Positions 12,519 to 49,655 of a DNA stretch of 64,000 nt are shown here, in pieces. How positions within the stretch are numbered: position 1 is the first letter of the stretch; each line of letters begins with the position of its first letter. The notes under the pieces are model-generated. The model was not told where the DNA came from, ran no database searches, and saw only the letters and a list, made by a program, of their open reading frames with translations. The translations under genes were made by a program, and so were the position numbers. The stretch is from Prorocentrum cordatum (lineage: Eukaryota; Sar; Dinophyceae; Prorocentrales; Prorocentraceae): the NCBI GenBank assembly GCA_963575745.1, contig CAUYUJ010018702.1, forward strand, positions 60,662-124,661, given 5' to 3'.

Positions 12519-13152
12519 TCAGGCCGAACTCGTGGCCTGAGGGGGCGGCGGGCGACGGATTCTGGCTGCTCGCTGCTTGAGCCCGTCGCCAGCGCCCGCT
12601 CCTGCAGCTGGCGCCGCGGGCGCAGGCGGAGGGGCCTCCGCGGAGGCAGCTGCCCCATCGCCTTCGGAAGGCGGTCCAGCAGCAGCAGCAGGCGCCGCCT
12701 CAGGGCCAGGAGCCGCGACATCAGAGTCCTGCCGCCTGCGCTTGCCCGCCAGGCGGGCCGCCATCTTCTCCTGCTCGATATTGAAGGCCTTGGCCTTCTC
12801 CGCCGCCTGGCCGAACACCGCCTTGACGGCCGCCGCCAGCTCGGTCTGCAGGCGAGCGGTTCGTTCTTCCAACTCCCTCTTGTCCGCATCTTCCATATCA
12901 TACTCCGCATCGTCGAAGCCCAGGCCAGCGAAGGACAGCGGGGTCGACTCGATCGTGCCATCCAAGATGCCAGCCACGCTGAGTGCCTGAGGCGGGGCTT
13001 GCTGCGGCGGCACGTACGTCTCCTTGAGCTCCACCACCAGGCGGCAGTGCTCCTTCTCGCGCTCCTCGAGCTCGGTAGTGAGCTGCTGCACCCATCTGCG
13101 CTGCTGCTCGAGACCCTCCTGCAGCCGCTCGAAGTGAGCCACCGCCTTCTCG
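12519..13152 (-). CDS. LINE ORF1 protein, C-terminal part (partial, 5' end displaced)
   Basis: Begins with no start codon: the frame reads EKAVAHFERLQEGLEQQ from the target duplication and is stopped within the transposon TIR just upstream. It forms a coiled coil (QQLTTELEEREKEHCRLVVE), a middle segment and a second coil (ERTARLQTELAAAVKAVF), then a basic patch KRRRQD and an Ala/Pro/Gly-rich tail to TGA at 12519. The missing N-terminal half is at 49647-50257; joining the two at the duplicated GCCTTCTCG restores the frame (KLEKA to AVAHF). Likely an RNA-binding, Gag-like ORF1 product, by position only. Confidence 0.75.
13144..13152. other. Left target-site duplication of the giant element
   Basis: GCCTTCTCG, identical to 49647-49655. 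Nine bases is the usual duplication of Mutator-like (MULE) transposons. Confidence 0.85.
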
Positions 13153-13207
13153 TGGGGAGGTCATGCTGGGCTCCTGGGCATGATCAAAAGTCCTTCCAAC
13201 AACCACC
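13153..13207 (+). repeat. Left terminal inverted repeat
   Basis: Starts TGGGGAGGTCATGCTGGGC. The inner 31 bp (13177-13207, GGCATGATCAAAAGTCCTTC...) are identical to the complement of 49591-49621. The outer 12 bp match the other end at 11 positions. Weaker similarity continues about 20 bp further in. Confidence 0.85.
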
Positions 13208-14890
13208 ACAGACAGCTAGTTTTAATATGTTTTGCATATCACAGCTTCATATGATTTTTATTTCCAGGCCCGCCAGATTCAGTAACATATGTTTTTGTTG
13301 CTGCAAATTGGGCGTTCTTGCTTTAGCAGCGCCCCGCTGATTGCAAATCCTCGCCGTTTTAGGGCAAGGAAATCCGAAGTCCGCCAGACAGGACGAACCA
13401 TAGTTAATAAATGGTGTTCTTGCATTGCACTGCGTTGCAACGCCGCAGAGTGCGAATTAATAACAGAGGGTGAGACGTTAAAGCTGAAGGGCAGCTCGCC
13501 AGGGCCTAACGGATTTATAAGTATGGTTCATTGTTTTCTGTAAGGTGGGTCACGGTTGTCTTATTTTTGTAGCAGTGTTTGGTGCTCGCAGATTTTTGCA
13601 TCTATTGTTCTTGTTCGTTGGGGTTGTAATGTTTCGCCCTTGTGTTTGATTTGGCGATTGTTGGGGTGGCAGGGTGTTAAGCTGAACAAATGAGGGAGAA
13701 CGTGAGGAACGACAGTTGAGAGAACAAATGCGATTTAAAAAGCAAGCTACCCATCGAAAACAACACAGTCGCCAATCAAGCCGTCATCACATATCAAAGG
13801 CATTATTCTCAGATATTCGCTGTTTATCGGGATTGTGTTTGGACTTTGCGTAGCAGCGTGATTGCTATGAGTATTGTTAATGTGGTCTGGTGGAGGGTGG
13901 GAGGGTGGGATGGAGGGACTCGAAACCGCTGCCAGTGTACACCCTGTCTCACATTTAGTTTCACACGGGCAAGCAGTGGCGCCGAAACATCCCACGGACC
14001 TGTGTAATATTGTAAATAACTGGTGTGTGTCATTGCGTGTTGTAAAATTTGCCCTTGCATCGTTTACGTATGCGACCGTACACTTGCCTCACCATGCGCG
14101 TCCAGAAATTTACTCGAGGAGGGGGGGATGAAGAGTTGGCCTCAGGTGCGAGCGGCGTAGACATCTGGGCGACCGTGGATCCAAGAGAGGGGGGCAATGA
14201 GGAGAATGAGCAACAACATGGGGAAGCTGAGGAGGAGGCTGATAGTAAGAGTGAGGATGCTGAGGAGAAAGACGACGACGAGGAGGACGCTTATGAGACG
14301 GAGAAGGAGGAGAAGTGGAAGGAGGAGGGGGCGACGGAGGAGGAGGCGAAGGAGGGGGAGGCGGAGGAGGGAGAGGAGAGGCAGGAAGAGGAGAATGATA
14401 CCGAAGACGAGAGGAGAAGGAGAGGTAGGAAGGGAGGGAAACGAAGAGGATGATGAGGAGGAGGAGGATGAGGAGGAGGAGGAGAAGTAGAGGCAGGAAG
14501 GAGGGGGAGGATAAGGGGGACGAAGAGGAGGAGGAGGAGGACGAGGAGGAGGAGGAGGAGGAGGAGGAGGTGGAGGAGGACGAGGAGGAGGAGGAGGAGG
14601 AGGAGGAGGAGGTGGAGAAGCAAGAAGAAAAGAAGAGGGACGATTCGCCGCTTGCCGCGCGGGCTCGGATCCCGCGGGCGGCCCCCCCGCCGGCACCGCC
14701 CATGCGCGGGCTTAGGCCTCCCCCCGCCTTGCCCGCGCGCGCGTGCCGTCCTCTCTCCACTCCTTTGTCCTTCCGTCTGCTCGCCGCTCGCTCTTCTCGC
14801 CTCGCTCTCTTTTGCTCGTCTCCTCCTGTTCTCCTGTTACCTCTCCTTCACTCGCCCCCAATGCCGCTCAGTTCTCGAAGATGCGCGCCT
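13208..14890. other. Left subterminal region, no gene recognised
   Basis: The first 800 bp are more AT-rich than the rest of the window, with short T runs, and hold no convincing reading frame. From about 14110 the plus strand becomes GAG/GAC-rich, and from 14455 to 14630 it is an almost pure GAG microsatellite. The long acidic or Ser/Pro-rich frames here are low-complexity artefacts. Confidence 0.5.
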
Positions 14891-14892
14891 CG

Positions 14893-15066
14893 GGGGGCGG
14901 GGGCGGGCTTCGTCGACGACGACGTCTGACGACAACGACGACGACGCCAACGACGACGTTGACGACGACGACGGCGTCGACGACGACGAGGTCGTCGGTG
15001 TGAGCGGCGTTCTTGAGAACACGGATAGGGAAGTACAAGAGAGGCAGAACAGTCTGGCAGAGAAGG
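14893..15066 (+). CDS. Possible acidic exon (weak)
   Basis: One plus-strand frame reads an Asp-rich run and then an ordinary sequence, SGVLENTDREVQERQNSLAE, followed by AAG|GTCACG, a possible GT donor. The Asp-rich part comes from a GAC repeat, so coding status is uncertain. It could be an early exon of the methyltransferase-like gene downstream. Confidence 0.25.
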
Positions 15067-15193
15067 TCACGTAAGGAAGACATACTCAGGAGCTGGAGGG
15101 CAATGGTAGACTCCTAACTTAGGTCAACACGTTTCTCCTTGTTTGCCTTCTCGCCCTTCAACCTCTTCCCACGTCGGACAGTGACAGTGCGCC

Positions 15194-15415
15194 TTAATTA
15201 TTATCTTCATGGTCTTCAGCTTGTGGCATCTCCGCGTCGCTCTCGGACGGGTCTGATGGCCACGTGAAAGTCGAGGGCGGCGAGGGCAGCGGCTGCGGCG
15301 GGAACAACGGGATCACGTAATTGCGAAACCCTTCGTGCGGGCCAACTGCTTCAAGCGCAACCCATTGCCATTTAGAGTAATCAAAAACCGCGGCCATGGC
15401 CGCGCTGAGCCCCAA
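15194..15415 (-). CDS. Possible terminal exon of a minus-strand gene
   Basis: On the minus strand an acceptor-like TGACCATTTACAG is followed by an open frame of mixed composition: LSAAMAAVFDYSKWQWVALE, then VGPHEGFRNYVIPLFPPQPL, then a Pro/Ser stretch and an acidic tail ending EDHEDNN and a TAA stop. The composition and the clean acceptor make it a plausible last exon. Upstream exons (15.6-15.8 kb) could not be fixed. It is the only good minus-strand candidate inside the giant element and lies about 2 kb from the left terminus. Function unknown. Confidence 0.4.
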   Translation of the reverse strand: MGLSAAMAAVFDYSKWQWVALEAVGPHEGFRNYVIPLFPPQPLPSPPSTFTWPSDPSESDAEMPQAEDHEDNN

Positions 15416-16319
15416 CTGTAAATGGTCAACTGCACCTCGAGCCTAACACTCATATGCGCAAAGCAAGGGAAGGGGAGGATGAGGATGAGGAGGATGAGGG
15501 GGAGGAGAAGGAGGAGGATACGGAGGAGGACAAGGATGGGAACGTGGGACAGGTAGATGGCTGGACCCAGGAATGGCAGGGGCTGGGACGGCAAAGGACG
15601 CAGCCATCGGCAGCCATTTTGGCTTTTCGGCCTCTGTAGGAGGCCGTGGCACCGTCGCCTGAAGTGGCGGTCGATGCCCACCAATGTGTCATTCCCCCCC
15701 TCCAACTTCCCTCCAACTTCCCTCCAACACTTCCTCCAATGCCCCCTCCAGCCCTCCAGCCTCCCTCCAACGCTCCACCGGCCCGTCCTCCAAACTGCCC
15801 CCAACCTCGAATACCCCCATCCCATCCTACCCATCGGTCGCCTTCGACCGCCAGACGGGTTGTGGGCTTGCCGCGATGCAGACCGCGGGAGTGGAGCAGC
15901 GCGCGGAGCAGGCGCGGGGCAGGGTAATGTAGTAATGTAGAGGGCCAGGAGATGGAGAAGGAGAAGGTGGAGGAGGAGGAGGAGGAACCTGGGGGGGGCG
16001 ATGATAACGAGGAGGAGGGACCTAGGGGGTCGGACTGGAGGAAGAGGAATCTAGGGGAAGAAACTTAAAGGGGGGAACGGAACCTTGGAGGAAGGCGCCT
16101 AGGGGGAGGAACGACCCTAGTTTGGAGGACCTCGGAATCGTAAGAACGGATGGCAAGGATGGAAGCTTCCTAACTCTCTTCTCCGCAACTTTCGTCTTCC
16201 CGAGCCCCTTTCTTATCTCGCGTTTCCTCCATTGTCCATCGTCCATCCTCCCAGCCCAGGCATCGCGCCCCGTGGCGCCGGCGCCTGACGACAGAGCTGT
16301 CGGGGCAGCTGCCAGGCGG

Positions 16320-16520
16320 TCGTCGTTGTCGGAGCGTCGAGTAGTCGAGTACGAGTCGTCGCGTCGTCGTGTCGTAGAGTACGGGTCGTCGATCGTCGAA
16401 TCGTCGTTGTCGTATCGTCGTCGGGTCTTCGTCAAGTCGCGTCGGCGTCGTCGTGCCGTCGTCGAGTCGTCGAGTCGCGTCGTCGAATCGTCGAATCGTC
16501 GAGGCGTCGATCGAGCCGTC
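16320..16520. repeat. Degenerate GTCG repeat
   Basis: Irregular GTCGTCGT/GAGTCGTCG repeats just before the first exon of the methyltransferase-like gene. Non-coding, perhaps upstream region or intron. Confidence 0.6.
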
Positions 16521-16571
16521 GTCTGCCTCTCTTCTTCCCCCTGCCGCCCCTTCGCAAGGCGCTCGCAGAAC

Positions 16572-16640
16572 ATGATGATGCCGCCGTTGCCCGTGCCGCC
16601 TGGCAAGAGGACAGCTCCGCGGGTTGTTTGCCCAGTGCAG
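16572..16640 (+). CDS. Gene X, putative first exon
   Basis: Starts at three consecutive ATGs, reads MMMPPLPVPPGKRTAPRVV and ends PVQ before GTGAGG, a canonical donor. Calling it the first exon of gene X is inference from order and strand. Confidence 0.4.
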
Positions 16641-16743
16641 GTGAGGAGGGAACGAAATGGGTGAATGGGCGGAAGTGTGGTGAGAAGGCGGAAGGAGGGA
16701 GGATTCAGGGAGGATACTCAGCACTATGCTTCATCCTTTGCGC

Positions 16744-16789
<46 letters not shown>

Positions 16790-19700
16790 CTCTCCGCTTC
16801 AGCAGTGCCCTCCGTCTCTGATATAGTTCTGTCACTGCTGTTAGTACTTTCGCTTCATACTTCACGTCAAGATATGCTCTGCCGCCCCTGCTGAAGAGAA
16901 CGAGCAAAATGAGGAGAAGGAGGAAGGGGAGGATGGGGGGGGAGAAGAAGGAATGAAGGGGGAGAGGAAGCGCACAAGAGTTCTTGCGGCCAGCAGGAGC
17001 CGCGGTCAGCCGACTCTGCGGGACTTGTGGCCGCGCCCGCCGCCACCGGTGCGTCGTCCTCCGACGCCGGCGCGAGCGGGCCAGAGGATGACGTCGCGCC
17101 AGGTGCAGCAGGACGGCGTAACCTTCCCGCGGCTGTGCGAGTTCGCCCACGCGATCCCGTCTCCAGTTCCCCCTGGAGGGACCCCTGTGATCGGGTGCGT
17201 TCTCACGGGGCCGAGGGACCCAGAGGTCCGTAGGAAGTGGACGTTCGAGCGGCTCAAGGGCTTGCACTCGGAAATGTGTGGGCCTTTCAGCCTCAGCGTG
17301 AATTGGTCCAAGGTTCCTCCCGATTGGACCCACGTGGTCAAGGCTGCCGTGCATCCTTCAGTCTGTTTGGATTCGCCCTTGAGGTTCCTGTCGTAATCAC
17401 GAAGCGCGACAACCAGGTGTTGACGCGCAACGAACGCCTTGCCATCCGCTATGTGCAGCGACAGTTCGTTGATGCACATCGCGCATGGCGCCAGGAGATC
17501 AAAAGGGCGTTCCAAGCAGACAGGGAGGTCGAGCGGGATTGAAATCTCAGGAATGAGGGCCTCACCTCCCCCCCGACCGACCCCCTCGCAGTCGCGTCCT
17601 CCCCGTCAATTTCTCCTTCCTCCCCGATCTCTTCGCTCTCTTCCTTCCGAGTCCGACTTCCCCCTCCGTTGCTCGTCTCGTCTTTTCACCCCTTCCCCTT
17701 GGCCGCCTCGTACCCTCCACTCTCTCCGCTCTCTCCTGCCCCACTGCTGCTCTGCTTCCGTTTGCGTTTGCGCTCCGCCCCGAGGCTGCCCTCTTGGAGA
17801 CCAGGGCGCTCGAGCGGCTTGACGCGGTGGACCTCTTCTCTGGCCAGGCCAACTTCACGAAAGAATGCCAGTCGCTAGGATTATCTTGCGCTTCTTTCGA
17901 CGAGCAGGATGACGCCTGCAACGACGTCTTGACGGAGCAGGGCGTGTTTAGGCGCGCATGGGGAGGGAGTTGACGCGAGACTAGTTTGCGGGATGATGGC
18001 GGCGACGACGATTACGGAAAGTACGAGAGGGCGAGGGGGGAGGGGAGAAGTTTTGAGGGTGAGGAGGAAGAGGAGAGTCTTGAGGAGAAGCAGGAGGACG
18101 ATGAGGATTATGATAATGCAGAGGTGAAGTCACGGAGAAGGAGGAGGACGTGAAGTGAAGGGGGGGATGGTGATAAGGAGAAGGATGAGAAGGACGAGGG
18201 TGAGAAGGAGGAGGCGAGGGAGGAGGGGGAAGCAGAGGGTGGGGGCTGGCCGCCAGGGTGATCTGCTTGATGGTGCGGCTGGTCCCGAACGGCATCGTCC
18301 TCGCGGGCCCCCCGTGCAAGTACTGGATCTTCCTCACCAGCGGGTCGACGAAACGGAGCACCGTTGTCAAGAGAGGAGGCATGTTCAGCATGAACACAGG
18401 GCAAGGTCGGAAGAGAGGGGAGGTGGGAGGAACTGGGGGGAAGAGAGGATTTCAGAAGCATCATCAACATGAGGAGGGTACTTTGGTTGATGAGTTGCAT
18501 TGTTGCTCGCGTGCAGTTTGGGCTCAAAAAGATGGGGGCTAACGCGAGCGACCTTGCCAGCAGGCCGCTTTGGCACGTCCCCCCGCCATGGGCCATGGCC
18601 CCCCGCTTCCCTTGTTACTTGGTCTGCTGGCCAATTGCCATATTTGCGGCAGTGCCCTGCCACGCGCTTCGCACCAGAGTTCCAGATTATTCCAGTATGC
18701 GCTCCCCGCACAGAGCGCAACGAGGTGATGCTCGATTGTGCGATCTTGTTGTGGGCGGAAGGGTGGCCTTTTTGTTTGGGCGCTCAATTGCACTCGGTTA
18801 CCCCTTGCCCTCGCCATCGCCTCTTGATGGCGGGGCCTTTGTCACAGTGCAGTGTTTCTGCATCGTCGCCAGGTACTTGGTGTACCAAGTCACCCTTGTC
18901 GACGAGGAGCCCTGGGATCCCTTGCGCGTGGAGGCAATTGGAGCGCTGGTGATCCCTGCGTCACCGGCGCGCCCTACCTTCGTTGGAGGCGGGCGTTTTC
19001 TAAATGTGTAAAAAGTAAAAAGAGGAGCGATGATGAAGGAGGAAGAACAGGCCAACGACAATGTCAGAGGGAGGGTATAGAGGAGGAAAGAGGACAAGGG
19101 CGATCAGTCGGGAAATAGAGCAAAAAAGGGGGAGTGTAGGATGCCTGCCTTGACCCTCACCTTGAACGTCCCTCGTACTTTCGTGGGCCCAGTGTTTTGG
19201 ATAGTTTCGTCGTTGCTTTCTCGCGCCCGCGGCCAGCGGAGGACTAACCAGAATCCTGCTGGAGATCCAGGCTCGCCCTTTGCTGTGCTCGGCAACAAGT
19301 TCGCATACTTCATGAAGGATTTGGCGCTGCTGCTCGATGCGCCCGACGGGGGGGGGGGGTGCGGAGGGCAGAGGTTCGTGCGCGCATGCGGCTGATCAAA
19401 CAACGTGTGATTGATTTTTCAACGTGACAGTGCGAACGCTCTTCTGTGCAGCTCCGCATGTTTCATCATGTTTCTCCTCTCCCTCTCTTGAACCCCCATT
19501 GCCTTTCTCAGCCCGTCTTCTGCCTCCTTACTTGTGCCCTGAGTCCTCTTCGTTGTGCCGCGCTCGCAATCCAGCGCCGCGGCCTCGTCGTTCTCATAGG
19601 GTCTGGGGAGGCTCTCTCGTCCAACGTCCACTTAGCGGTGGAGCAGCCAGCGAACAGCATGATGTTCAAGTTTCGGCCGCTAGCAGACGTGCTGGATCTG

Positions 19701-21078
19701 TTGAAGTTCCAGAAGCACTTCATGCGCATGGGGTCCTTTGGCCATGAGAGCCCGAAGCCCAGCCACATCGTGACCAACGGGCAGTGGGGCAAGTGGCTCG
19801 AGGCGTGGGCGAAGCACTTACCTTGCCAGCAGGACTGCCTTTTGCTTCTCAAGGGATGCGGCAGGGAGGAGGGAGGGAGTGACGGGTCGGGGATAGAGAG
19901 AGAGAGGGAGAGGGATATTGAGAGAGAGAGAGCTGAGTTAGAAAGAGATGGCAAGATATACCTTGGGGCCGCGAGGTGTGGAAGAGAGAAAGATAGAGAG
20001 AGAGAGAGAGATCAGAGAGATTGAGAATGAGCAACGAGAACACGCCTTGTGCGCGCACCTGCCACGCAAATCGTGAGACTCACTCTGTGGGGTACGGGGG
20101 GGGGCATTGGCCGCTGCAGTCGCACGTTTATAAACGGGCGATCGCCTCCTCCAGTCGACCAAACGCTTGTCCTACGTGCAGCCATGCGGTTCGGTGACTG
20201 GCCAAAAGAATACCAGCGATATCTCGCTTGTCCGCCAAGCGGGAGAAAGGGGCGGAAACGGTTCGGAAAGGGCTCGGCACGTTTAGCGTGCACCGGTAGA
20301 GAGAAGGCGTAGGCCAGGTATACGAAGAGGAACATCAGGCGGAGCAAAGACGGAAGGAGGGGGAGGAAAGGAATGAATTGAGAGGGGGTGGAGGCCATAC
20401 AATGATCAAGGTAGGAGGGTGAGGAGGGAGTGAGGGGGGAGAAGATTGGTAGAGAGCAAGCTGGCGCAAAGTGGGAGTTCTTTGGAAGACCGCCGCGGCA
20501 TTCGGCACGAAAAGTGCCTGGTCGCGGCGCAGCGGACATCCACTCTTCGGCTGCCTACACGCGACAGTTCTGCGCAACGCTTCTCTTCCACTACCACTTC
20601 GAGATGGCGCAGGACGCGTTTCGGCTTCCATTTTTATGTTGCTTGATTTCTACCATGTGCTTCTCTGTTTGTGTATGCGAGTGTGCCACTACCTTGCAAA
20701 TGCAGTGCATGGCGCTCTCCGCATTGAATGTAAGTTCTTCTGGGTTCCAGCCTCGTGAGAGTTCCTTCGGTAGCTCTGCGTGTGTGTCTAGACCTTGACG
20801 TACCTTTAATGTTTCTGAGGGTGAACAGTGACCTCGTTTCGTTCTTCACTCATGTTTTCCACTACTACTCTCCCTTCACGCTCTCTGCGATCCAATCGTG
20901 CTGTCACTGCAGCCCTTTCCCGTGCCATTCTCTACCCTCTCGCCTCCGCTCTGGCGCCCGTCGGATTAAATGGCTTTCAGCGCATCATCGGCAACTCCCG
21001 CATCCTGAACCTGTGCTTGCTCAAGCTCACCGCGCTCAAGGGTTCCGAGCGCTTGTGCCGCCGTATCGTGTCCTTCTT
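16572..21078 (+). CDS. Cytosine-5 DNA methyltransferase-fold protein gene (gene X)
   Basis: Joined exons at 17800-17951, 18257-18362, 19252-19338 and 19611-about 19830 keep one frame and follow a known dinoflagellate family. DLFSGQANFTKEC is the S-adenosylmethionine-binding motif I. NGIVLAGPPCKYWIFLTSG holds the GPPC motif IV with the catalytic Cys. STKRST/NPAGD and GNKFAYF follow, then HLAVEQPANSMM (ENV/EQP-type motif) and MRMGSFGHESPKPSHI. Exons at 16572-16640, about 17360-17526, about 20471-20610 and 20981-21078 are assigned more loosely. Likely nuclear. The family is diverged from canonical DNMTs, so real methylation activity is not assured. Both gene ends are uncertain. Confidence 0.7.
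16999..17526 (+). CDS. Gene X, candidate upstream exons
   Basis: After CCAGCAG the frame reads an Ala/Ser-rich linker (PRSADSAGLVAAPAATGASS). From about 17360 the same frame reads VPVVITKRDNQVLTRNERLA, then IRYVQRQFVDAHRAWRQEIK and ends FQADRE before GTCGAG. A stop at 17234-17236 separates the two, so an intron must lie between them. The second piece has strong coding character (charged helix); the first is low complexity. Confidence 0.4.
17800..17951 (+). CDS. Gene X exon with SAM-binding motif I
   Basis: Reads ERLDAVDLFSGQANFTKECQ, then GLSCASFDEQDDACNDVLTE. DLFSG is the cofactor-binding loop of C5 methyltransferases, although the usual GxGG/S step is altered to GQANF. The acceptor follows CTTGGAG. 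The donor is GC (17952-17953), and the split codon AG|G reads correctly into the next exon at 18257. Confidence 0.75.
18257..18362 (+). CDS. Gene X exon with catalytic GPPC motif
   Basis: Reads VICLMVRLVPNGIVLAGPPC, then KYWIFLTSGSTKRST. The Cys in GPPC corresponds to the methyltransferase nucleophile. Acceptor GCCGCCAG, donor GT at 18363. The phase agrees with both neighbouring exons. Confidence 0.8.
19252..19338 (+). CDS. Gene X exon, NPAGD block
   Basis: Exactly 29 codons: NPAGDPGSPFAVLGNKFAYF, then MKDLALLLD. Acceptor TAACCAG, donor GC at 19339. The family pattern STKR..NP.GD......GN.LA continues across this junction. Confidence 0.75.
19611..19833 (+). CDS. Gene X exon, EQP block
   Basis: Reads ALSSNVHLAVEQPANSMMFK, then RPLADVLDLLKFQKHFMRMG and SFGHESPKPSHIVTNGQWGK. 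VEQPANS corresponds to the ENV/EQP motif of the family. The acceptor is GGGGAG. The exon end is uncertain because the frame stays open into a GAG-rich intron. Confidence 0.75.
20471..20610 (+). CDS. Gene X exon, C-terminal block
   Basis: Reads WEFFGRPPRHSARKVPGRGA, then HSSAAYTRQFCATLLFHYHF. Related dinoflagellate proteins carry a G.G....S..Y...FC..L block at this place. Boundaries are approximate (acceptor GCGCAAAG; end near GATGGCGCAG). Confidence 0.55.
20981..21078 (+). CDS. Candidate exon, possibly gene X 3' end
   Basis: After TGGCTTTCAG the frame reads RIIGNSRILNLCLLKLTALK, then GSERLCRRIVSF before GTAGGT. Good composition and consensus splice sites; membership of gene X is inferred only from position. 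Confidence 0.4.
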
Positions 21079-22734
21079 GTAGGTCACTGTAGGCTGATCC
21101 GTTCAGCAGCGCGGCCGAAGCGCAGGCGTCCCGTTTTAGGCTTAGGGTTCAGGAAGGGGAGGATACAAAGGGAGCGAGAGAAAATCGGATAGAGCCTGCT
21201 TCGTGGCGCTAGAACTACGCTTCGTCCACTTGAGCTTCTGGGTCACAACGACCACGGAGGCATCGCGCAGGCATGCGATTGCGATAGGTGTATCGGGAGT
21301 GCGCATGGCATGCGGCAGCCGCTGTAAGGGGTGCGGTGGCGAGTGCGACGTTTGCGAAATGTGCGCCTCTCTCGCTGCCACGCGTATCTCTCTTGCTGTC
21401 CGCCGAGCTTCTCTCCCAACCATCACTATCATCAACCAACGACGCAGATGCCCTTGCTCGCCTTCGATGCCATTATATGTTTGTCCTGCTCGCTAGCTCC
21501 GATCCTTGCGCGACCACTTGCGATTCGTCGTTCTCAAATATTGTTGCTAAGTCCGACCTCTTGCTTCACTTAGCCGCATTGTGATTGCGATGTCGGACGT
21601 GGCAGTTTGGACGCATGCAAATGTTGCATCGCGCCTTACCCCCCTCCGCCCGCGCCGCCTCTCTGGGCGCGCGTCGCGCCGCTGGTGTTTCTCTGTCGCG
21701 CCTTGCACGTCTCGCCCAATGTGTCTCTGGAGTTAACTCCGTCGGCCAACCTCGCCCTCCACAGCACATGCTCGTCCGCCCTTCGAAGACCCTTTCATTC
21801 CCGACATGAAAGTCCAAATGTGGTTGCCGTGATGTCGTGCCCCCGTGTCGTCTTCTACTTGTGGCTTCTGTCATCGATGGCAAGGCGGGGTGAGAGCGGG
21901 CGGAGAGCTGCGATGCGGTCTGTTGGGCGATAGCACGATAAAAGAGGGTGAACGGTGTAGGAAGGGGGAGATGAGAAGGTCAGGATTGCGCGACGACGCG
22001 AGAGACAGAGACAGAGAGAGAGAGGATCACGCACAGAGAGAGGCACAGATCGACGACGCAGAGATTCACAGCCTACGAGGACATGAAAGGTGGAGCGCAG
22101 AAGCGACAATGAGAAACATGCGCATTGGATGAAGGAGAATGATGAGAACCGCTTCCCCCCAGGGTCCCCGCGCTGCTTATTGATAGCAGCAGGCGCCGCG
22201 GCCGCCCCTCGGGCCGCCTCTGGCTTACCTTGGCGGGGCGTGGGAGGGGGCGGTCTGAGGTTTGAGGGCAGTCCACTAAGCCCAGTCGAGAAGACGAGTG
22301 CGCGATTGTCACGTCATCGCATGCGCGTGTAAGTCAGCTTACGGGCAGGGGCAGGGGTGAGGAGATGTCGGGCAAGATGGGATCAAGTGGCGGAGAAAGA
22401 GCGGGAATAGGACGAAGGAGAACTGCTTGATAGCATCAAGCCGTCATTGCTGGCCCTGGTCCACCTTTGGCGGGGGCGGAGGGGGCGGCAAGGAGCCGAG
22501 TAGTCTGAGGGTGTCTGCAGTGTCCGTCGGAGGGGGACGCATTGTTGTCATGACATCCCTGGCGAACGCATGCGTGATGCTCATGAGCACGGTAACGGAT
22601 ACGGTAGCCATGAAAGTTGCGAATGGGAGGCGCCGTTACTGCTTCACCTGCATCTTCCTCGTCCCCCAGCTGACTCAGCTGACCTACGTGCGCTGGACAA
22701 CCGCTCGCCTCTGCGTCATTTGATCACATCTCTC

Positions 22735-22765
<31 letters not shown>

Positions 22766-22860
22766 ATATGTCTCCCTTGCCAACGCTGCACGCTGTCTCC
22801 TCCTTCTCGTCCTCCCCTCCTCCTTTTTTTATTTTGCGCACGTGACAGGAGTGAACGCCA
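21079..22860. other. Intergenic region, no firm gene
   Basis: Mixed sequence with a CT microsatellite at about 22731-22767. Short frames with some coding character exist (near 21585-21810 and 22560-22720), but splice sites and frame continuity do not support any one of them. Just before gene Y a T-rich tract and an AG (near 22850) look like an acceptor for cis- or trans-splicing. Confidence 0.4.
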
Positions 22861-22866
22861 GTATCA

Positions 22867-34962: not shown

Positions 34963-34997
<35 letters not shown>

Positions 34998-37530: not shown

Positions 37531-37585
<55 letters not shown>

Positions 37586-38883: not shown

Positions 38884-38927
<44 letters not shown>

Positions 38928-38965
38928 GTCCCCCTTCTCTCCACGCGCCGCTTTTCTTCTCAGAC

Positions 38966-39055
<90 letters not shown>

Positions 39056-42000: not shown

Positions 42001-42140
42001 AGACGAACGAGGGCAACCTGGACGGAACGGCGGCGGCGGCGTCCTCTTCTGGCAACGCGGCTTGGCAGCTGCCCCAGTCCAGTCCCAGCAGCGGTCGCGG
42101 TGACGCGGCGTCGGCCGCGGGCGTGGAGCCGTTCCTTTAG
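30804..42140 (+). CDS. Gene Z: unrecognised protein encoded by about 20 small exons
   Basis: A chain of short exons on one strand, most with matching phase across AG acceptors and GT or GC donors. Best-supported pieces: 30804-30916, 31742-31860, 32680-32774, 33337-33448, 33796-33897, 34331-34579, 35068-35241, 35559-35689, 35872-36078, 36425-36519, 36730-36844, 37275-37333, 37955-38209, 38663-38788, 40036-41076, 41241-41285, 41512-41685 and 41992-42140 (TAG). The protein is mostly helical and charged, with a Lys-rich coil, an acidic stretch and a long Pro/Gln-rich region near the end. I recognise no domain. It may be two genes. Start is probably the ATG at 30821. Confidence 0.5.
31285..31425. 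repeat. Three copies of TTCCAACTGGTTGGAA
   Basis: Identical 16-bp near-palindromes at 31285-31300, 31381-31396 and 31410-31425. The last two have CTCCTTCCAAC and the first two are followed by GG. CCTTCCAAC also occurs in both terminal inverted repeats, so this could be an internal protein-binding cluster. It lies in a presumed intron of gene Z. Confidence 0.6.
31742..31860 (+). CDS. Gene Z exon
   Basis: After CCGCGCCAG: ARYGEHLSTLELLAAVDAEF, then LIFSDKAVSFITRSGDFSI before GTGGGG. Confidence 0.45.
32680..32774 (+). CDS. Gene Z exon
   Basis: After GTCCACAAG: DHYEAIHGATLAEGMKAAHN, then ADHEKKNRNVQ and a split Arg codon. The codon completes across 33337, which implies a GA 5' splice site (AG|GATTAT). 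Confidence 0.45.
33337..33448 (+). CDS. Gene Z exon
   Basis: After TATACCGCAG: TVTRGVVRFIKGLGNIFNGE, then STETTIIEKIRDVDALE with a GC donor at 33449. Confidence 0.5.
33796..33897 (+). CDS. Gene Z exon
   Basis: Exactly 34 codons after TTGATGAG: AGFATLRRANGWTWSSLGQN, then LYNEKRYEYVQATR before GTGAGG. In phase with the exon before. Confidence 0.55.
34331..34579 (+). CDS. Gene Z exon
   Basis: After ATGCCTTAG: IMQHALLSTPACPKAMHPDR, with KYEITATFRKDAVKTKCQVT, then QTIWDQLVSRANREVDFPNM and ending ILAHVTR before a GC donor (34580). Strong coding character. Confidence 0.6.
34965..35004. repeat. (CT)n microsatellite
   Basis: One of many CT/GA tracts in the presumed introns of genes X, Z and W; others at 16748-16790, 37529-37583, 38888-38925, 38968-39080, 42990-43096, 48540-48565 and 48640-48682. 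Several lie a short way upstream of acceptor sites. Confidence 0.85.
35068..35241 (+). CDS. Gene Z exon
   Basis: After CTTGCAAAG: ALKASRPDVIVDIVLLGFPR, then VNKPWGKCEALPNGLPLLRS and INDDCLKTLLTAYTEADR. In phase with 34579. Confidence 0.55.
35559..35689 (+). CDS. Gene Z exon, Lys-rich coiled coil
   Basis: After GTCATAG: ANDLKAEQKRKKKAEAATKK, then LCDKAEKHKQKVHKLDEKMA and KAC before GTGAGAG. A basic helix, possibly nucleic acid-binding or a nuclear localisation signal. Confidence 0.6.
35872..36078 (+). CDS. Gene Z exon
   Basis: After GTCGCGAG: AEAEGKKVNKKTVQLKHTPL, then PLELIGDDAEGATADWFTHL and IDKSQAELIEAFRHIALFMA before GTCGGG. The phase match to the previous exon is not clean. Confidence 0.5.
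36296..36519 (+). CDS. Gene Z exon(s), acidic then helical
   Basis: An acidic piece (EDSDGGGSDDSCDDDNADRD) is followed, in another frame from about 36425, by APGAEKEIKGWTVLKAFMKS and LIYRNARLKPRL. An intron or misread junction must separate them. Confidence 0.4.
36730..36844 (+). CDS. Gene Z exon
   Basis: DSDPDALMVLNLVSESSTAG, then NQEEIEGFLAEMIVSNNN before a GC donor (36845). Reads in phase into 37275. Confidence 0.5.
36975..37215. repeat. (CTC)n-rich intron segment
   Basis: About 240 bp of CCT/CTC repeats directly before the acceptor at 37274. Confidence 0.85.
37275..37333 (+). CDS. Gene Z exon
   Basis: AAEDVLNLVCDTIGFSLPLM; the frame reaches a stop (37337) unless a GC donor at 37334 is used, in which case it joins in phase to 37955. 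Confidence 0.45.
37955..38209 (+). CDS. Gene Z exon
   Basis: After TTGCCGCAG: AQGHAAKTMNSVMAALTMHV, then WDNMEDPRNYFLSTAFAHVE, then DVAKVIADVKAAEKHDMLIN and FHAMADLDR before a GC donor (38210). One of the longest well-supported exons. Confidence 0.6.
38663..38788 (+). CDS. Gene Z exon
   Basis: After GGGGCGCAG: IQLLAHILDNLKQMVFVLRA, then PAALSNDEEHALLPAAATSH before GTTCCG. In phase with 38209. Confidence 0.55.
39559..39660 (+). CDS. Possible gene Z exon(s) (weak)
   Basis: Reads RIADAARPPREVLGITTLAT, then KVEIEKTMVSLPEVI. A GT donor may follow REV's first two residues and an acceptor may precede VEIEK, so this could be two tiny exons. Confidence 0.3.
40036..41076 (+). CDS. Gene Z exon, long Pro/Gln-rich region
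   Basis: Opens HAMALEDDPPATLPMNYPDD, continues for about 180 residues of Pro/Gln/His repeats, then RKRAIGQGDAVIIDVDGPAA, a basic patch KPKKRPKVCK, Ala-rich repeats, and the ordered helix LTEAESALWQTAYSQGYKAG. The frame is open throughout despite the biased composition, and the ends are ordinary sequence, which supports real coding. Confidence 0.55.
41241..41285 (+). CDS. Gene Z exon
   Basis: After a C-run and AG: IPLELLPLVAALMDI plus one base, before GTGAGG. Confidence 0.5.
41512..41685 (+). CDS. Gene Z exon
   Basis: Reads APQPREERQKWVQWKANAPG, then IEAMSDQISQELGPPGATGD, ending WAQEL plus one base before GTAGGA. The phase agrees with both neighbours. Confidence 0.55.
41992..42140 (+). CDS. 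Gene Z terminal exon
   Basis: After TGCCTCCGAG, completing a split Glu codon: DSKTNEGNLDGTAAAASSSG, then AWQLPQSSPSSGRGDAASAA, ending GVEPFL and TAG. Confidence 0.55.
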
Positions 42141-42643
42141 AGGAACTCTCGTTGTGGCTGGCCTTTTTTTCCAATGGCCCACAGGGCCGCGTTGCTTGCG
42201 TCTCGCTTGAAACCGTAGAGGAGAACGAGGAGGAGGGGAAGGGGATAGGATGGGGTGGAGGATGAGAAGGAAGGGCTTTCTGCAGTTTGGGGGAACTTCT
42301 GAGGACGGGAAGAAGAGTAAGAGTTCAACCTGGTGAACTTCACCAGCTTGGGGGAACGATCAGTGATTCGGGAAAGCGCCAACTCGTTGCCTGTTGGCCT
42401 CGATGCTGCCCTTCTGCTCTTCTCCCTCGGCACAGCGTGAAGCAATCTAGTAGTAGAAGTAGTAGTGGCTCGCGCGTGCCGACGCGCAGCAGAATGTAGA
42501 CTGCCGCGCCACGGTGAATTGTTGCACAGAGCTGGCAAAGCGAACTTTGATATCGCCACTGCCTCAAACAAGCGTTCTCTAGCTTTGCGTTTCATCTCAT
42601 TGTGAAGCATCGCTTCTGTTCGCTTCATCCTACGCGTCCGCCA

Positions 42644-42991
42644 ATGCCAGAGGTCAGGGGCCGCGTTATGATTCTACCATTGCCCAGCCCCCTGTCTGGT
42701 TGATAAGGGTGCCAGTGCAAAGTTCTTGTTCAATGCGACATTCGTTGCGTAACGCCCGCCTCTTGTCTTCGCCACGCTGTGCGTCATGGCTCGTTGTTGC
42801 GCGCGGGAGCGCAATGTGAGATGCGTGCTTGACTTTGCGCGATTGGCTGAAGTGGAGGTGATGGCTGAAGCGAAGGAGAAGGAGGAGAGGTAGGAGGGGG
42901 AGGAGGAGGAGTCGGGGGAGGAGGAGGAGGAGGGAGCGCTTGAAGTAGGAGAGGAGGACGGAACTTGGAGCGAGTCGAACGAGAGCGGCGT

Positions 42992-43037
<46 letters not shown>

Positions 43038-43041
43038 CTAA

Positions 43042-43072
<31 letters not shown>

Positions 43073-45385
43073 CGCGCGAGAGAGAGAGAGAGAGACGGAG
43101 AGACGATGCGGGGCTTGGGAGGCTGGCCCCCACAACCTGACGACTCGCAAAGTGTTGGATCTGGTCGTTACCAAGTTGTATGCGATCTCGGGCATGACGG
43201 AAGACGCTAGCTTCGCCCAGTTTTGCTTAGACCACGAGAACATTAAGAAAGAGTGCCTCTCTGCCAACGCTGTTGAGTCTCTGAGATCGGTGGGGGTTGG
43301 GCCGCTTATGTATTTTTATGCAATGTGTTTGCGCATGCGTTTGTCAATGTCCTGCGCGGCTGCTATTGCATGTGCAGGTTTTCTAGCTTCGCACCCCCCT
43401 AGCAGTGCAGGGGTCATAACGTTGACCCTTCCGCCGTCGCCGGCGTGCCCCCCTACCTGGGCCGTCTTCTTCTATCGCTCTTTCTCTCTTCTTTTGTCTC
43501 GCTCTCTGTCTTATTCATCTTTCATTCAGCCTCTCTCGGTTATGCTTGTGATTGTCATTGTTGCATTCGCGCGCACTTGCATTTGTTGATATTATTATTT
43601 TGCCGATGGGGTGGTGTGGTGGTTGGCGGGACATGCGCCATCTGACGTCCAAAGGGGGTTGGGAGGTTACCACCAAGTGGGGTTTGAAAACGAAGGTGGC
43701 GGATAATGCGGTTCTCTTCACGAAGGGCAGTGAGACCAAACAGAAGATCATGGCAGAGTGGGCTGCGCGGCACCAGAACCATTTGAACACCAAGATGAAG
43801 GCCGACGCACCCTTGGACGCTGTTTTCGCTGAGCTTGCGGACGAGTTCCCGAAGCCGGTGGCGGGTGGAAACTCACATGGTTGTTTCGAATTGTTACTGC
43901 GTGTTCAGTGTTCTATCGTTTCTCCTTCCTCCGATCGCACTTGCCTACGTTCCTTGAGTCTCGTTGCGGTCGCATCCGTTGTCACTCCCCCATCGCCATG
44001 CCCCCCCCAAATCTCCCTCGGTTTCGTTGCTTTCTTTTGCAATGCGCATGAGCCCAGGCATCCTCGAAGAGCATCGTGGCGTCGAACGGAAATGGCGTCA
44101 GCCAGGAGAATAAGTTCGAGCCCTTGCTTCTCTCCGAGTGGTGGCAGAAGAACGTGGAAGCCGAGCAGGCGACAAGCGAAGACAACGGCTCGCGACCCAG
44201 AATCGCCCAGTACATCAAGAACCAGCTCCAGGCGGCCCTGCAGAGCAAGATACAAGGACCTGTGCTTCTGAATTGTTGCTATGTTAGTTCATTCCTCTGC
44301 TCCCGCTCCTGCATCCCCCCCCTCCTTCTCATCACTCCTCTCCTCCCCCAGGAGGAGGAGGTGGGCAGGGGGGGGGCTGCAGCGGCAGCAGCAGGATAAA
44401 TGCAAGGGGGTGAGAGGGGGACAGAGGGTGGAGGGCAGACAGGAGGGAGCGGGGCCAGGCCGCCTGCGCGTCCGAACACGCGCCCTGGCACTCCTCGACC
44501 TCCACCAGCGCCGGCACCTGCGCCCGCAGGGAGGATCAGGGCGAGAGGGAGGACAATATTGATGTGGACATGGAGGACAAGACCCAGGAGGGGGAGGAAG
44601 GATGGCGAGGAAGGATGAGGATGAGGAGAACGAGGAGAATGATGAGGATGATGAGAAGGCGAAGAACGATCCAGAGAGCGAAATCGGAAAGGAATAATGA
44701 TGTGCCGAGCGTTTTTTCGCCCTTCCCCACCCTCCCCATCCCCAGAAACGTTCACGACGTCGATGGGGGCCATCTTGATTCAAAAATCCAACACGTTCGT
44801 CAAGATCGAGAAGACCGACAAGGGTGAGATCAAGAGCCAGAAGTTGGAGAGGCGTCGGATTCCACGGGGGCAGCATTGGGGATCTATCTTATCAATGCCT
44901 TGTACTTTTGATTGCAATCATTTCTTGTTCTTAAGCGTTCCGTTTCTTGTGCGTGCCATGTATGTTTGGTGTCATGCTATCGTCGTCGCCGCCCGACGTT
45001 GTCAGCGTCCCTTCAGTCAGCCTCGCCAGGTTTCGGCTAGGCCATCGTTCATCTGCACGTGCCGTTTAGTATTGTGTGTTTTCAAGTGATGGTTTGCCGA
45101 TGGTACGCATTCAACGTACGCCGTCTCTTTCGCATGTATTTGGGAATGAGTTGGCATGGAATGTGTGCAACATGCGAGGCATTGCGTGGACGGCGGAACG
45201 TGGCCGACCCTCCCGTTCAACGGGCGCGTCGTCGACGATGCGGTGGCCGCGCACATGAACAAGAGCTTGCTCCTGCCATTGTCGCCGGCGGAGGCTCGCG
45301 GAGCAGTGTAGTAGCAGTCGTAGTAGACAGACGCAGTAGCTGTAGTAGCAGTCGTTGCTGATGCACCAGTAGTAGTAGTATCAGC

Positions 45386-45461
<76 letters not shown>

Positions 45462-45519
45462 CAGTAGTACAGTAGTAGTAGTAGTAGTAATAATAGTAGT
45501 AGTAGTAGTAGTAGTAGTA

Positions 45520-45565
<46 letters not shown>

Positions 45566-48514
45566 GAGTAGGAGTAGGAGTAGGAATAGGAGGATGAGGA
45601 GGAGAAGGAGGAGGAGGAGAAGGAGGAGGAGGAGGAGGAGGAGGAAGGAGAGGCGGGGAGGAGGTGACGGGACGCACCATTGGTTCTCTCGAGAAGCCCG
45701 AGAGGCAAAATACCGTCATCCTTTCACGAATTGAATGAACTTGTTCTTGCACTGGACTCATTCTTGAATTCTCATGTTCTCGTTGCTCTCTTTATCCCGC
45801 TGCCTCCTCTCCGCTCCACTCTGCAAAATTCCGCACTATCAGGGTTCTACCGCTCAGGAGAAGGCCATTTCCGAGATGCTGCCGACGTTCTAGTCTGCGG
45901 CTTTGCCATTCCGCCAGCGCGATCGAGTCGATCGATCGGTCGCCGTAGTCGTCGTAGGTTTGATGTCGTGATGTGTCTCTGGAGGGCGCGGCTCCATCCG
46001 CGTCTCCATGGATCATTCCACCCGCCGCTTCTCACCGACGACGCTTCCTCTCTCTCTCTCTCTCCCGCCCATTCCTTCTCCTCCTCCCACCATCCTATCA
46101 TCCTCTCTTCATCTGTCCCTCCAGCCACCTCCCTCCTCCCTCCTCCCACGTCGCTCGTGCTGAGCGGGGCTCTCCGAGTAGGGGGGGCATCGTCGGATCT
46201 TGACGGGTCCCAGGTATCGAACGCAGGGCGCAGCAATTGCTGCTTGGCGTGGCTCATCGGCACCAAGAAAGTTTTCGAGAACCAGGACGAGGCGAGCGGG
46301 GGGGCGCGCGCGTTGTTCTCAGAGGAGCCCAGGAGGAAGAGGCGTGGAGAGGATGAGGGTGGGGGAAGGGAACCACAGGGTAGGTAGGGCAGGGCAGCGC
46401 AGTGCAGGGAAGGGCAAGGCAGGGTAGGTAGGTAGGAGGTAGGGAGAGGTAGGGTAGGACAGGGTAGGATAGGGTACGGTAGGGCGTGCTTTCGTTGGTA
46501 AGGTAGGGCATGACTTAGGATGGTGAGTCTGGTAAGTAAGTAGGCCAGTGTTGGGTTTGGGGCGGGCGGGCAGGTGGATGCGGTTGACGCCAGTGCGGGA
46601 GCACGTCGGGGGCATCGTCGATCGCCAATTGTCGCCGTTGCCGCGCCGCCCGCAGGCCGCCGACGACACGGAGAGCCACGTCAGCGGCCCGAGCGGCTGC
46701 GGGGGCCCGCCCTCCAAGAAGCGCAAGAAGAGCAATAAGCAGGAGGAGGTGGAGGCGCAGAAGGATTATGGGCACGTTTCCCCCACCACGAGTTACAAGC
46801 CGCTCCTCCTTCTCCTCCTCCTACTCCTCCTCCACCTCCTCCTCCTCCTCCTCCTCCCCTTCTCATCCACGGACTCCTCTGACCTTCTCATCCTGGTCCT
46901 CCTCCTCCTCCTCCTCCGACTCCTCCTCCTCCTCCTCCTCGCCTTCACATCCTACTCCTCCCTCTTCTCCCCCCCCCTCCCTCTCCCCCCTCTAGTGCCC
47001 ATCAAAAGGAGACGCACGAGATCATCTACACCGTGATCGAGGTCAACGCTGGCATCGGGAACGACTGCAAGACGTAAGGGGGGGGGGGGGGCGAGTATGG
47101 GGGTTGTTGCAATGATAATGGTGCCTTCCTTCTCATTGCCTCTGCCTTCTGCTGGTCCGATTTGCATGCCTGATTCCACCCGCGCACTGAGCTTCTACTG
47201 CGTTGCTCACATGGTCCTTACCTCCACCACTTCATACTTCCATATCTGACATATCTGATCTAGTGGCTTGCTCCATTTTTCACTGCCCGTTGCTACGGTC
47301 ATTTATTTGCTCAGTTACGTGCTAGCTTCATTGCTCGTAGCCCCTTCCCTTCTACTACTCCATTCGCTCACTCACTCTCCAATCCGTTGCGCTGCTCAAT
47401 GCACTCGGGCGGGAGGTGCCGTTACCAGGTGCCCAGCTTGACGGAGGTCGAGGAGCGCAAGTCGGTGTTCCACGCGGACCAGCCCGACTTGTGGCGCCGC
47501 AGGACGTGGTTCGACGATTGGAAGTTCGCGAAGGCGAAGAAGGAGAGGCCCGCCCGCCCGCGCGCCTCCTTCACTTCTGATCCTCTCCTCGTTCTCACTC
47601 ACCACCCTCCACCCCATAGGACTTGGAGCGAGGGGGAGGGGGAGGAGCAAGTCGGAGGAGGGGGAACTGAGTTGGAAAGTAAGGGAGGCCTGACAGCTGG
47701 AGGGGGCGAAGGGCGAAGGACCCAGGACGGGAAGAAGGTGGAGGAGGGACGAGGAGGCCCAGGCGGGATGAAGGCGGCACGGGTGACGGCCCGACGGCGG
47801 CGTCAACGACGTCGACGCCGGCGACGGTTGTCCTAGCTCATCCTTGGCTCATCTTCCTCGCGTCCTTACCCCCCCTCCTTCTTCATCCTCCTTTTCTTGC
47901 TCCGCCTCATCCTCCTGCTCGTTCTCCCTATCCTCCACCTTAGCTCCACCTTCTCCTCCTCCACCTTCACATTCTTGTTCTTATCCTTCTCCACGTATTC
48001 CTCCTCTTGACTTCCTCCTCTTCTCCTCCCTGTCCGCCTCCTCTTGACTTCATCCTATCCTCCGCCTCCTCCTCTTCCTCCTCCTCCCCCTCCTCCTCCT
48101 TGTCCTTCTCCTCCTCCTCCTCCTTGTCCTTCTCCTCCTCCCCCTCTTCTTCTCCTCCTCTCCCCCTCCCCCCCCACCTTCTCCTACTCCTGCCTCCTCT
48201 TGCCCCTCCTCCTCCTATCTTCTAACCGTCCACAGGACCCCTATCCACCTCCTGCTCCGATTCGTTCCTCCTCCTCCATTTCCGACTCCATGTCCTCCTC
48301 TCGTTCTCCGAGTCGTCATCGTTCTCATGCTGCCCACGCGCCGCCTCCTGCCCCTCCTCCGTGCCCCCCTTCTTCCTCCTCCGTCTCTTCCTCCTGCGTC
48401 GCGCCCCGCCCCCGCCAGGTCGCCGGCGGCGTCGTTCATTCACAAGTGAATGCCGCCAAGCGGCCACGGCGCGCGCGGACTCGCGGACTCCGCAAGGGAA
48501 GCGAGATGGAATGA
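42644..48514 (+). CDS. Gene W: second unrecognised multi-exon gene
   Basis: Possible start ATG CCA GAG|GTCAGG at 42644, then exons at 43122-43289, 43666-43857, 44070-44255, about 44530-44595, 44746-44851, about 45179-45293, 45843-45887, about 46214-46330, about 46574-46740, 46996-47073, 47416-47548 and 48419-48514 (TGA). Each reads as mixed-composition, mostly helical and charged protein; several junctions keep phase. Two basic patches (SKKRKKSN and KRPRRARTR) suggest a nuclear protein. I recognise no domain, and the chain could be more than one gene. Confidence 0.45.
43122..43289 (+). CDS. Gene W exon
   Basis: After GCTTGGGAG: AGPHNLTTRKVLDLVVTKLY, then SGMTEDASFAQFCLDHENIK and AVESLRS before GTGGGG. 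Confidence 0.55.
43666..43857 (+). CDS. Gene W exon
   Basis: After GGTTGGGAG: VTTKWGLKTKVADNAVLFTK, then SETKQKIMAEWAARHQNHLN and LDAVFAELADEFPKP before GTGGCG. In phase with 43289. Confidence 0.55.
44070..44255 (+). CDS. Gene W exon
   Basis: SIVASNGNGVSQENKFEPLL, then SEWWQKNVEAEQATSEDNGS and IAQYIKNQLQAALQSKIQ. Acceptor CTCGAAG. Confidence 0.55.
44530..44595 (+). CDS. Gene W exon, acidic (weak)
   Basis: After GCGCCCGCAG: EDQGEREDNIDVDMEDKTQE. The downstream edge runs into a GAG-rich stretch. Confidence 0.35.
44746..44851 (+). CDS. Gene W exon
   Basis: After CATCCCCAG: TFTTSMGAILIQKSNTFVKI, then EKTDKGEIKSQKLE before AG|GC. Confidence 0.5.
45179..45293 (+). CDS. Gene W exon
   Basis: DGGTWPTLPFNGRVVDDAVA, then AHMNKSLLLPLSPAE before a GC donor. 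A stop lies just downstream in frame. Confidence 0.45.
45366..45660. repeat. (GTA)n then (GGA)n microsatellite
   Basis: About 200 bp of GTA repeats interrupted by a few AAT and ACA units, running into GAG/GGA repeats. Presumed intron of gene W. Confidence 0.9.
46214..46330 (+). CDS. Gene W exon
   Basis: VSNAGRSNCCLAWLIGTKKV, then FENQDEASGGARALFSEE. Acceptor GGTCCCAG. Confidence 0.4.
46376..46530. repeat. Degenerate GGTAG/GGCAG pentamer repeat
   Basis: Irregular run of GGTAG, GGGCA and GGACA units in a presumed intron. Confidence 0.7.
46574..46740 (+). CDS. Gene W exon with basic patch
   Basis: WMRLTPVREHVGGIVDRQLS, then PRRPQAADDTESHVSGPSGC, ending PPSKKRKKSNKQ before a GAG-rich intron. 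Confidence 0.5.
46996..47073 (+). CDS. Gene W exon
   Basis: After CCCCTCTAG: AHQKETHEIIYTVIEVNAGI, then GNDCK and two bases before GTAAGG, the strongest donor in the window. The split Thr codon completes at 47416. Confidence 0.55.
47416..47548 (+). CDS. Gene W exon
   Basis: CRYQVPSLTEVEERKSVFHA, then DQPDLWRRRTWFDDWKFAKA, with a GC donor near 47549. Confidence 0.55.
48419..48514 (+). CDS. Gene W, possible terminal exon
   Basis: After CCCCGCCAG: VAGGVVHSQVNAAKRPRRAR, then TRGLRKGSEME and TGA. A basic C-terminus resembling a nuclear localisation signal. Confidence 0.4.
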   Translation, partial: VAGGVVHSQVNAAKRPRRARTRGLRKGSEME

Positions 48515-48539
48515 GAGAGGAGAGAGGGAGAGAGAGCGT

Positions 48540-48570
<31 letters not shown>

Positions 48571-48637
48571 CGCAGGAGTAGAAGAGGGACGCGTAGAAGC
48601 AGATGAGGGGAGGTGCGGGAGGATGACATGGGAAAAT

Positions 48638-48688
<51 letters not shown>

Positions 48689-49590
48689 TACGACGCGGTG
48701 GAGAGAGAAGGAGAGGAGGAGGTGGACATCAGGAAGATGATGAGGATGAAAATCAATAGGAGGAGGATCAGGTGGAGAGGGGATGGAACGAGGGGCGAAA
48801 CAATTCAGGAGCTGTGATCAGTGAGGAATGGATGAGGGTCGCAACACATGATATTCCTCCTCCTCTTCCTCTGTGCGCGTGCCGAGGCCTTCGAAGAAGG
48901 CGTTAGTTTACCTTTCGCCCAAATTTTGTCGCTGTGGGCGTGTGCGAGAGTCTCCCCCGCATCCATCCTGTTTGCACGCTCACCCATCTGTCTTGCCTTG
49001 ACGTTACTCCTTCGTCCTCCTCTTCTTCATCAGTGTGATCGCCAGTCCCCACCTAATCCTTATTATTTTGACGCCACCGGTGCATCTCTCTAGTCTGCCA
49101 TGCTGACTCACTGTGCAACGTTGCGTTCCCCTCCCCCACTGCAAGTCCCCCTCCCCCTCCCCCTTGCCATCGTCGTCGTCGTCATTGTCCTCCCTCACCC
49201 TTCCTCCTCTGAATGTTCCTACTCATGCGTTGTCTTCTCTTGCTCTGATGCCTTTGACAGTATGCCGCTTGTATTGCGTCAGTGAATGTATCTGTGGCGC
49301 GCGTCGCCTGCTTGAAAAATGGTTCTGCTTCGAGCCTGCCTTGCAATGGGGAAAGGAAGGGCAGAGAGGGAATAGAGAGGTGGAGGGGCAGGGGCGCGCC
49401 TAAGGAAAACTGGGCTGAAGGGCGCAAGCCGATTGCACCAGCACATGGGAGAGAAGATAAAACAGAGTATGGGTGTGCAGCAACGCAGAGTAACTATGTA
49501 ACTGAATTGTTTTCGATTATATTCTCAGATACGAGATCATTTTTTTTTGGGTTTCAAGGGCGTCAGAATCAAGTAAAACCATGTGTTCGA
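48515..49590. other. Right subterminal region, no gene recognised
   Basis: Two GA microsatellites (about 48540-48565 and 48640-48682), then ordinary sequence with a T9 run near 49540-49548. No supported coding sequence between the last exon of gene W and the right terminus. Confidence 0.5.
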
Positions 49591-49646
49591 GGTGGTTGTT
49601 GGAAGGACTTTTGATCATGCCGAACCATCTCAGTATGACCTACCCA
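49591..49646 (-). repeat. Right terminal inverted repeat
   Basis: Complement of the left terminus: the inner 31 bp (49591-49621) are identical and the outer end reads ATGACCTACCCA. One indel and several substitutions lie between these blocks. Confidence 0.85.
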
Positions 49647-49655
49647 GCCTTCTCG
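49647..49655. other. Right target-site duplication of the giant element
   Basis: GCCTTCTCG, identical to 13144-13152. Confidence 0.85.

Follow-up and report, generated by a model that had tools for sequence, protein, structure and literature searches.

The window analysed here, a 64-kb stretch of DNA from a dinoflagellate (C17853:60662-124661), contains an element of 36,494 bp (13153-49646) that we read, with a probability of about 0.8, as a giant class II (TIR) transposon from a young multi-copy family, in which gene A would encode the transposase and gene B an accessory protein. To our knowledge, few eukaryotic TIR transposons reach this size and contain multi-exon genes, and the bloat of dinoflagellate genomes is poorly explained. 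If the reading is correct, the element would stand for a new superfamily among DNA transposons, with two genes, 36 kb, precise ends, a transposase domain that profile searches do not recognise and many relatives, and would offer a way for whole genes to move about in dinoflagellate genomes. It also raises the biochemical question of how ends 36 kb apart pair, and whether protein B is what pairs them. The element is bounded by four features:

13144-13152, no strand: left copy of the target duplication, GCCTTCTCG.
13153-13207, plus strand: left TIR, about 55 bp, with a 31-bp identical core at 13177-13207; also found at other loci.
49591-49646, minus strand: right TIR, an inverted copy of the left end.
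49647-49655, no strand: right copy of the target duplication, GCCTTCTCG.

The outermost ends, TGGGGAGGTCAT and TGGGTAGGTCAT, match at 11 of 12 positions, and the identical core of 31 bp lies further in. The window holds 30 inverted 24-mer matches; 16 of the first 20 are the element's TIR pair and the other four are one local G-rich pair. The 9-mer GCCTTCTCG occurs three times in the window (at 13144, 15145 and 49647). Joining the flanks in silico with one 9-mer kept produces an open minus-strand host frame (...VSQKLEKAVAHFERL...). The original prediction had drawn the boundaries from these three signs, the 9-bp duplication, the inverted ends of about 55 bp and the restored frame, and both its coordinates and the signs are right. 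Its statement that the frame belongs to LINE ORF1 stands in part: the frame is open across the join, but Pfam did not confirm that the target is a LINE. That either junction of the window is misassembled is unlikely, because the same ends recur at other sites.

We searched the assembly (4.13 Gb, 21,875 contigs) with the left end, which returned 12 matches. Ten of them are ends from six loci (the window itself on C17853, and C15741, C4525, C10313, C14452 and C18117), and two are diverged ends (C2974 and C17796). A degenerate pattern of the TIR core, run over the whole assembly, found the same 12 places, and its reversed control found none. Paired termini elsewhere in the assembly, as expected from the original prediction, are present at C15741, C4525 and C10313, spaced 36.7-56.9 kb apart, the first two with 9-bp duplications. 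Long matches to the window across the family are 96.0-99.8% identical, a range that leaves out short matches in simple repeats. The entire element is covered, in order, by C15741, C10313 and C4525, the last with an extra internal repeat; C14452 covers it from 17384 to the right end, with an N gap in front of its own left end, and C18117 from 13158 to 25772, where that contig stops. All three copies with both outermost ends intact (3/3) are flanked by a perfect 9-bp duplication, different in each case: GCCTTCTCG in the window, TCCAAGAGG at C15741 and GTTCTAGTG at C4525. C10313 has both ends, lacks their outer 5 and 4 bp and carries no duplication; it has its left edge in common with C18117, so the pair may not count as independent.

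The surplus of about 20 kb in C4525, which repeats internal sequence and abuts a 100-N gap, probably arose in scaffolding; we rejected a true 57-kb variant because the repeat adjoins the gap. The divergence of C15741 from the window, taken in 500-bp bins, ranges from 0 to 3.6% in a mosaic, which suggests exchange between copies. The diverged end at C2974 has no relative of A at E <= 1e-3 within the 40 kb inward of it and no partner end within 40 kb (core with up to 10 mismatches), 7.5 kb of that sequence being N. A TIR (class II) element is recognised by the inverted ends of a repeated unit and by a target-site duplication whose length stays the same from one independent site to another, and both are found here, the latter at 9 bp. 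Together the copies support a young, multi-copy family of independent insertions, in agreement with the original prediction of a very large TIR transposon that carries genes, makes 9-bp duplications and resides in a genome of dinoflagellate type.

Gene A lies in the left half of the element:

22867-25379, plus strand: gene A (putative transposase), exon 1.
25380-28408, plus strand: gene A intron, GC-AG, 3,029 bp, inferred by alignment to the continuous relatives P0003 and L043.
28409-29915, plus strand: gene A exon 2, with a Cys-rich, PHD/RING-like pattern at its end.

The GC-AG intron joins the two exons in frame to give 1,339 aa. Their source frames (22855-25392 and 28377-29915) both align to P0003, a P. 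cordatum protein and the one relative returned by protein database searches, and to L043, an intronless 1,400-aa frame at C10114. A stand-alone gene at 28.4-29.9 kb was rejected because both relatives run uninterrupted across the break. Non-canonical splice sites in dinoflagellates are described in the accessible text of PMC10666404 and PMC11453091.

Relatives of A are abundant in the same genome. Out of 1,667 candidates we scored 54, every one at E <= 1e-104; the giant family accounts for seven, and 47 lie outside it. Among the latter, an open frame of 1,062-1,641 aa is present in 35 of 47, and 45 of 47 have no stop within the match. The nearest whole relative of exon 1, at C10391, is 70.4% identical over 828 residues, and its frame stops at the same place as exon 1, as if the two shared the intron. 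Comparison with C10391 gave dN/dS of 0.206/1.45, or about 0.14 (Nei-Gojobori, 832 codons), with dS near saturation, a sign that A is constrained between families. Among the giant copies, A shows 19 nonsynonymous and 7 synonymous substitutions and one stop (in C15741), with no visible constraint, the pattern that decay of copies after insertion would leave. When L043 was compared outward with another relative, L044, in search of ends, the similarity ended at an N gap.

Four aligned sequences all share residues D320, D422, C451, H454, H457 and E824, which we interpret as a candidate D-D-E triad plus C-x-x-H pair. The C-terminus is Cys-rich and PHD/RING-like by eye, in a region where Pfam makes no call. 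Pfam, with its limited sensitivity, matched neither of the two A frames to any family at E <= 10 and assigned L043 to no transposase family; a PDB search with A gave no transposase match, and scans of IMG/VR found no relative. AlphaFold models of the exon-1 frame and of a 555-aa core had mean pLDDT of 38.7 and 37.2, from two-sequence alignments. Size, motifs, abundance, constraint and position together make a large DDE-type transposase the most likely product of gene A.

Gene B lies downstream of A, and its pieces are as follows:

33320-46375, plus strand: gene B, many exons, with pieces supported by a relative.
33320-33460, 34397-34579, 35050-35235, 35848-36069, 45186-45302 and 46100-46375, plus strand: gene B pieces at E <= 0.1.
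36437-36517 (E 1.4) and 37967-38206 (E 0.83), plus strand: weaker gene B pieces, added for collinearity.

The relative, on C1747, shows an open frame of 992 aa within the stretch examined, and gave no meaningful Pfam or PDB match. Its tblastn comparison with the window (E up to 10) yielded 25 rows, of which six were kept, two weaker ones added and 17 dropped. The six rows with E <= 0.1 all match the plus strand, extend from 33320 to 46375 and are collinear with the relative, except that 45186-45302 and 46100-46375 partly overlap in it. The piece at 37967-38206, weak against this relative, is strong in the genome search with chained exons. Exons guessed at 40-45 kb do not match the relative (blastp E 6.1). 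A division into two genes, at 34-39 and 40-45 kb, was rejected because matches to one relative protein flank the gap, and the region 33320-46375 is probably a single gene.

A query built from the exons at 34.3-38.8 kb, chained by hand, matched at least 96 places in the genome, those outside the giant family lying on at least 43 contigs. Among the matches listed (45 A contigs and 43 B contigs), 16 non-giant contigs carry both genes, against a chance expectation of 0.09 calculated at contig level with every contig weighted equally. In 16 of 16, B is on the same strand as A and 4.0-13.8 kb downstream. By spacing these contigs form roughly five groups, some of which consist of near-copies, and so do not represent 16 independent lineages. 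Also among the matches listed, the partner is missing from 29 of the 45 A contigs and from 27 of the 43 B contigs outside the giant family. From its linkage to A, we regard B as most likely an accessory protein of transposition.

The ends, the duplications and the collinear copies argue for movement as DNA with a 9-bp staggered cut in the target. In such a process, protein A would bind the ends of about 55 bp, pair them across some 36 kb, excise the element (presumably by cut-and-paste) and insert it into a target cut with a 9-bp stagger, from which repair would create the 9-bp duplication. Protein B might assist in end binding, long-range pairing or target choice.

A 9-bp duplication is a hallmark of Mutator, and MULE and hAT transposases are known for a C-x-x-H pair placed after the second D and before the E. 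The element could be a Mutator-like (MULE) element grown very large, with A a MULE transposase too diverged for Pfam: its duplications lie within the 9-11-bp criterion, and A has a candidate C-x-x-H pair in that position. Pfam, however, detects no MULE or other transposase domain in A, in L043 or in the 71 inner frames, and the ends are about 55 bp, and we consider this origin unlikely. Of the Mutator membership hinted at in the original prediction, only the duplication fits. As far as the accessible parts of PMC6431247 and PMC2774946 describe them, Mutator-like elements and Pack-MULEs resemble the element in their 9-bp duplications, TIRs and cargo of genes or gene fragments; it differs in its 36 kb, its ends of about 55 bp, its conserved gene B and the absence of a detectable MULE domain. 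A little more doubtful is a nested or composite unit, in which short transposon ends captured a host segment and A and B are passengers of an external enzyme. Relatives of A and B do occur on contigs without matches to these TIRs, and both genes contain introns, which are unusual in transposon genes. Against this, the order and strand of A and B are kept in diverged families, and A is abundant and repetitive, as a transposon gene would be; a passenger role is less likely because the two travel together in those families.

We give very little credence to a segmental duplication or assembly artefact. The internal repeat at the 100-N gap in the 57 kb of C4525, the N gap that hides the left end of C14452 and the left edge shared by C10313 and C18117 would suit it, but three copies stop at the same base and each has a perfect 9-bp duplication of its own, and the empty-site join restores a reading frame. 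An integrated virus or Polinton-like element is just as improbable. It would account for the large size, the inverted ends and the several genes, and polinton-like viruses are reported from the dinoflagellate Oxyrrhis (PMC12721341); yet we found no PolB, integrase, capsid or packaging ATPase, Pfam assigned no family at E <= 0.01 to any of the 71 inner frames of at least 150 aa (71/71 searched; short exons would escape), the duplications are of 9 bp and A has no relative in IMG/VR.

En/Spm elements make duplications of 2-3 bp. In the red alga Chondrus, enlarged En/Spm elements reach 16-20 kb with 4-5 ORFs (PMC6431247, in part accessible), and are likewise TIR transposons enlarged by extra genes in an alga; the element here differs in size and in its 9-bp duplications. 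The KDZ group (Kyakuja, Dileera, Zisupton) also has large transposases, and Zisupton duplications are 8 bp, unlike the 9 bp here, according to the accessible sections of PMC12730594; Pfam, within its limited sensitivity, found no KDZ transposase domain in A.

The best reading of the giant transposon is that it belongs to an undescribed superfamily with a two-gene (A+B) core. The suggestion in the original prediction of a possibly undescribed type agrees with the lack of significant Pfam matches in the element frames and core proteins and with the literature searched, where we met no such dinoflagellate element; novelty is provisional, because most subscription papers, preprints and Repbase fell outside that search. 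With much less assurance than for the transposon itself, we lean towards the element being one lineage of a previously unrecognised superfamily of very large transposons, characterised by a finger-ended transposase of ~1,340-1,400 aa and a partner of ~1,000 aa, that would occupy many loci, perhaps hundreds, of a single dinoflagellate genome and could move multi-exon genes from one to another.

A third set of exons lies to the left of gene A:

17803-19817, plus strand: possible methyltransferase-like exons at about 17803-17955, 18261-18401, 18463-18510 and 19568-19817, weak, from motifs read by eye.

Of the several multi-exon genes in the original prediction, two-exon A is well supported and many-exon B supported, while this set is weak. 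It contains DLFSG and AGPPC motifs. In the PDB, 9 of 11 rows are M.HhaI, at a weak E of 1.3-1.4, over residues 12-91 and across motifs I and IV; Pfam gave no match to the exon chain at E <= 5. A similar methyltransferase-like domain is common in dinoflagellates, and the assignment as a methyltransferase-like gene is weak. In the accessible sections of PMC12730594, fungal KDZ elements are associated with DNA-base-modifying genes, a loose parallel to these exons. Retrotransposons of Symbiodinium carry DNMTs (PMC5890265, in part accessible) and are likewise dinoflagellate mobile elements with cytosine methyltransferases; those genes are Pfam-positive and intronless, whereas the candidate here is weak, split into exons and borne by a DNA transposon. 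If real, the exons might encode cargo or an anti-silencing factor.

The giant TIR transposon (window 13153-49646) lies within a minus-strand reading frame, here called the host frame, which it interrupts. The host frame and an endonuclease-like frame downstream of it lie in these stretches:

11103-13152, minus strand, on one side of the element
49656-50059, minus strand, on the other side

Together the two frames look like a LINE, in agreement with the original prediction of a LINE host. The identification is by eye, since a Pfam scan of 11837-13180 gave no match. Also outside the element, large satellite-like arrays with an 89-bp unit occupy window 56370-59913.

Compared with the other copies of the family, the window copy lacks 38 bp at 20110-20111 that are present in all five, and about 96-105 bp at 42083-42085 that are present in those on contigs C10313, C4525 and C15741. 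Either a private deletion or a collapse of simple repeats during assembly would explain this. The loci C10313:166604 and C18117:177376 have the outer 30 bp of the left flank in common, and in both the TIR is short of its outermost 5 bp. They represent either one locus that appears twice in the assembly or a duplication of the region.

Two further contigs carry TIR ends from what may be a related family of greater age:

C2974:23262, diverged single TIR end, about 81-82%
C17796:104273, diverged single TIR end, about 81-82%

No partner for the C2974 end was found within 40 kb (core, up to 10 mismatches; 7.5 kb of this stretch is N).

The intron (25380-28408) of gene A, the putative transposase gene, has imperfect inverted copies at both ends, seen by eye at about 25390-25406 and 28392-28408. 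Introner elements likewise have inverted copies at intron ends, and P. cordatum introns are described as enriched in them in PMC10666404. The intron position seems to be common to C10391, the contig with the nearest whole exon-1 relative.
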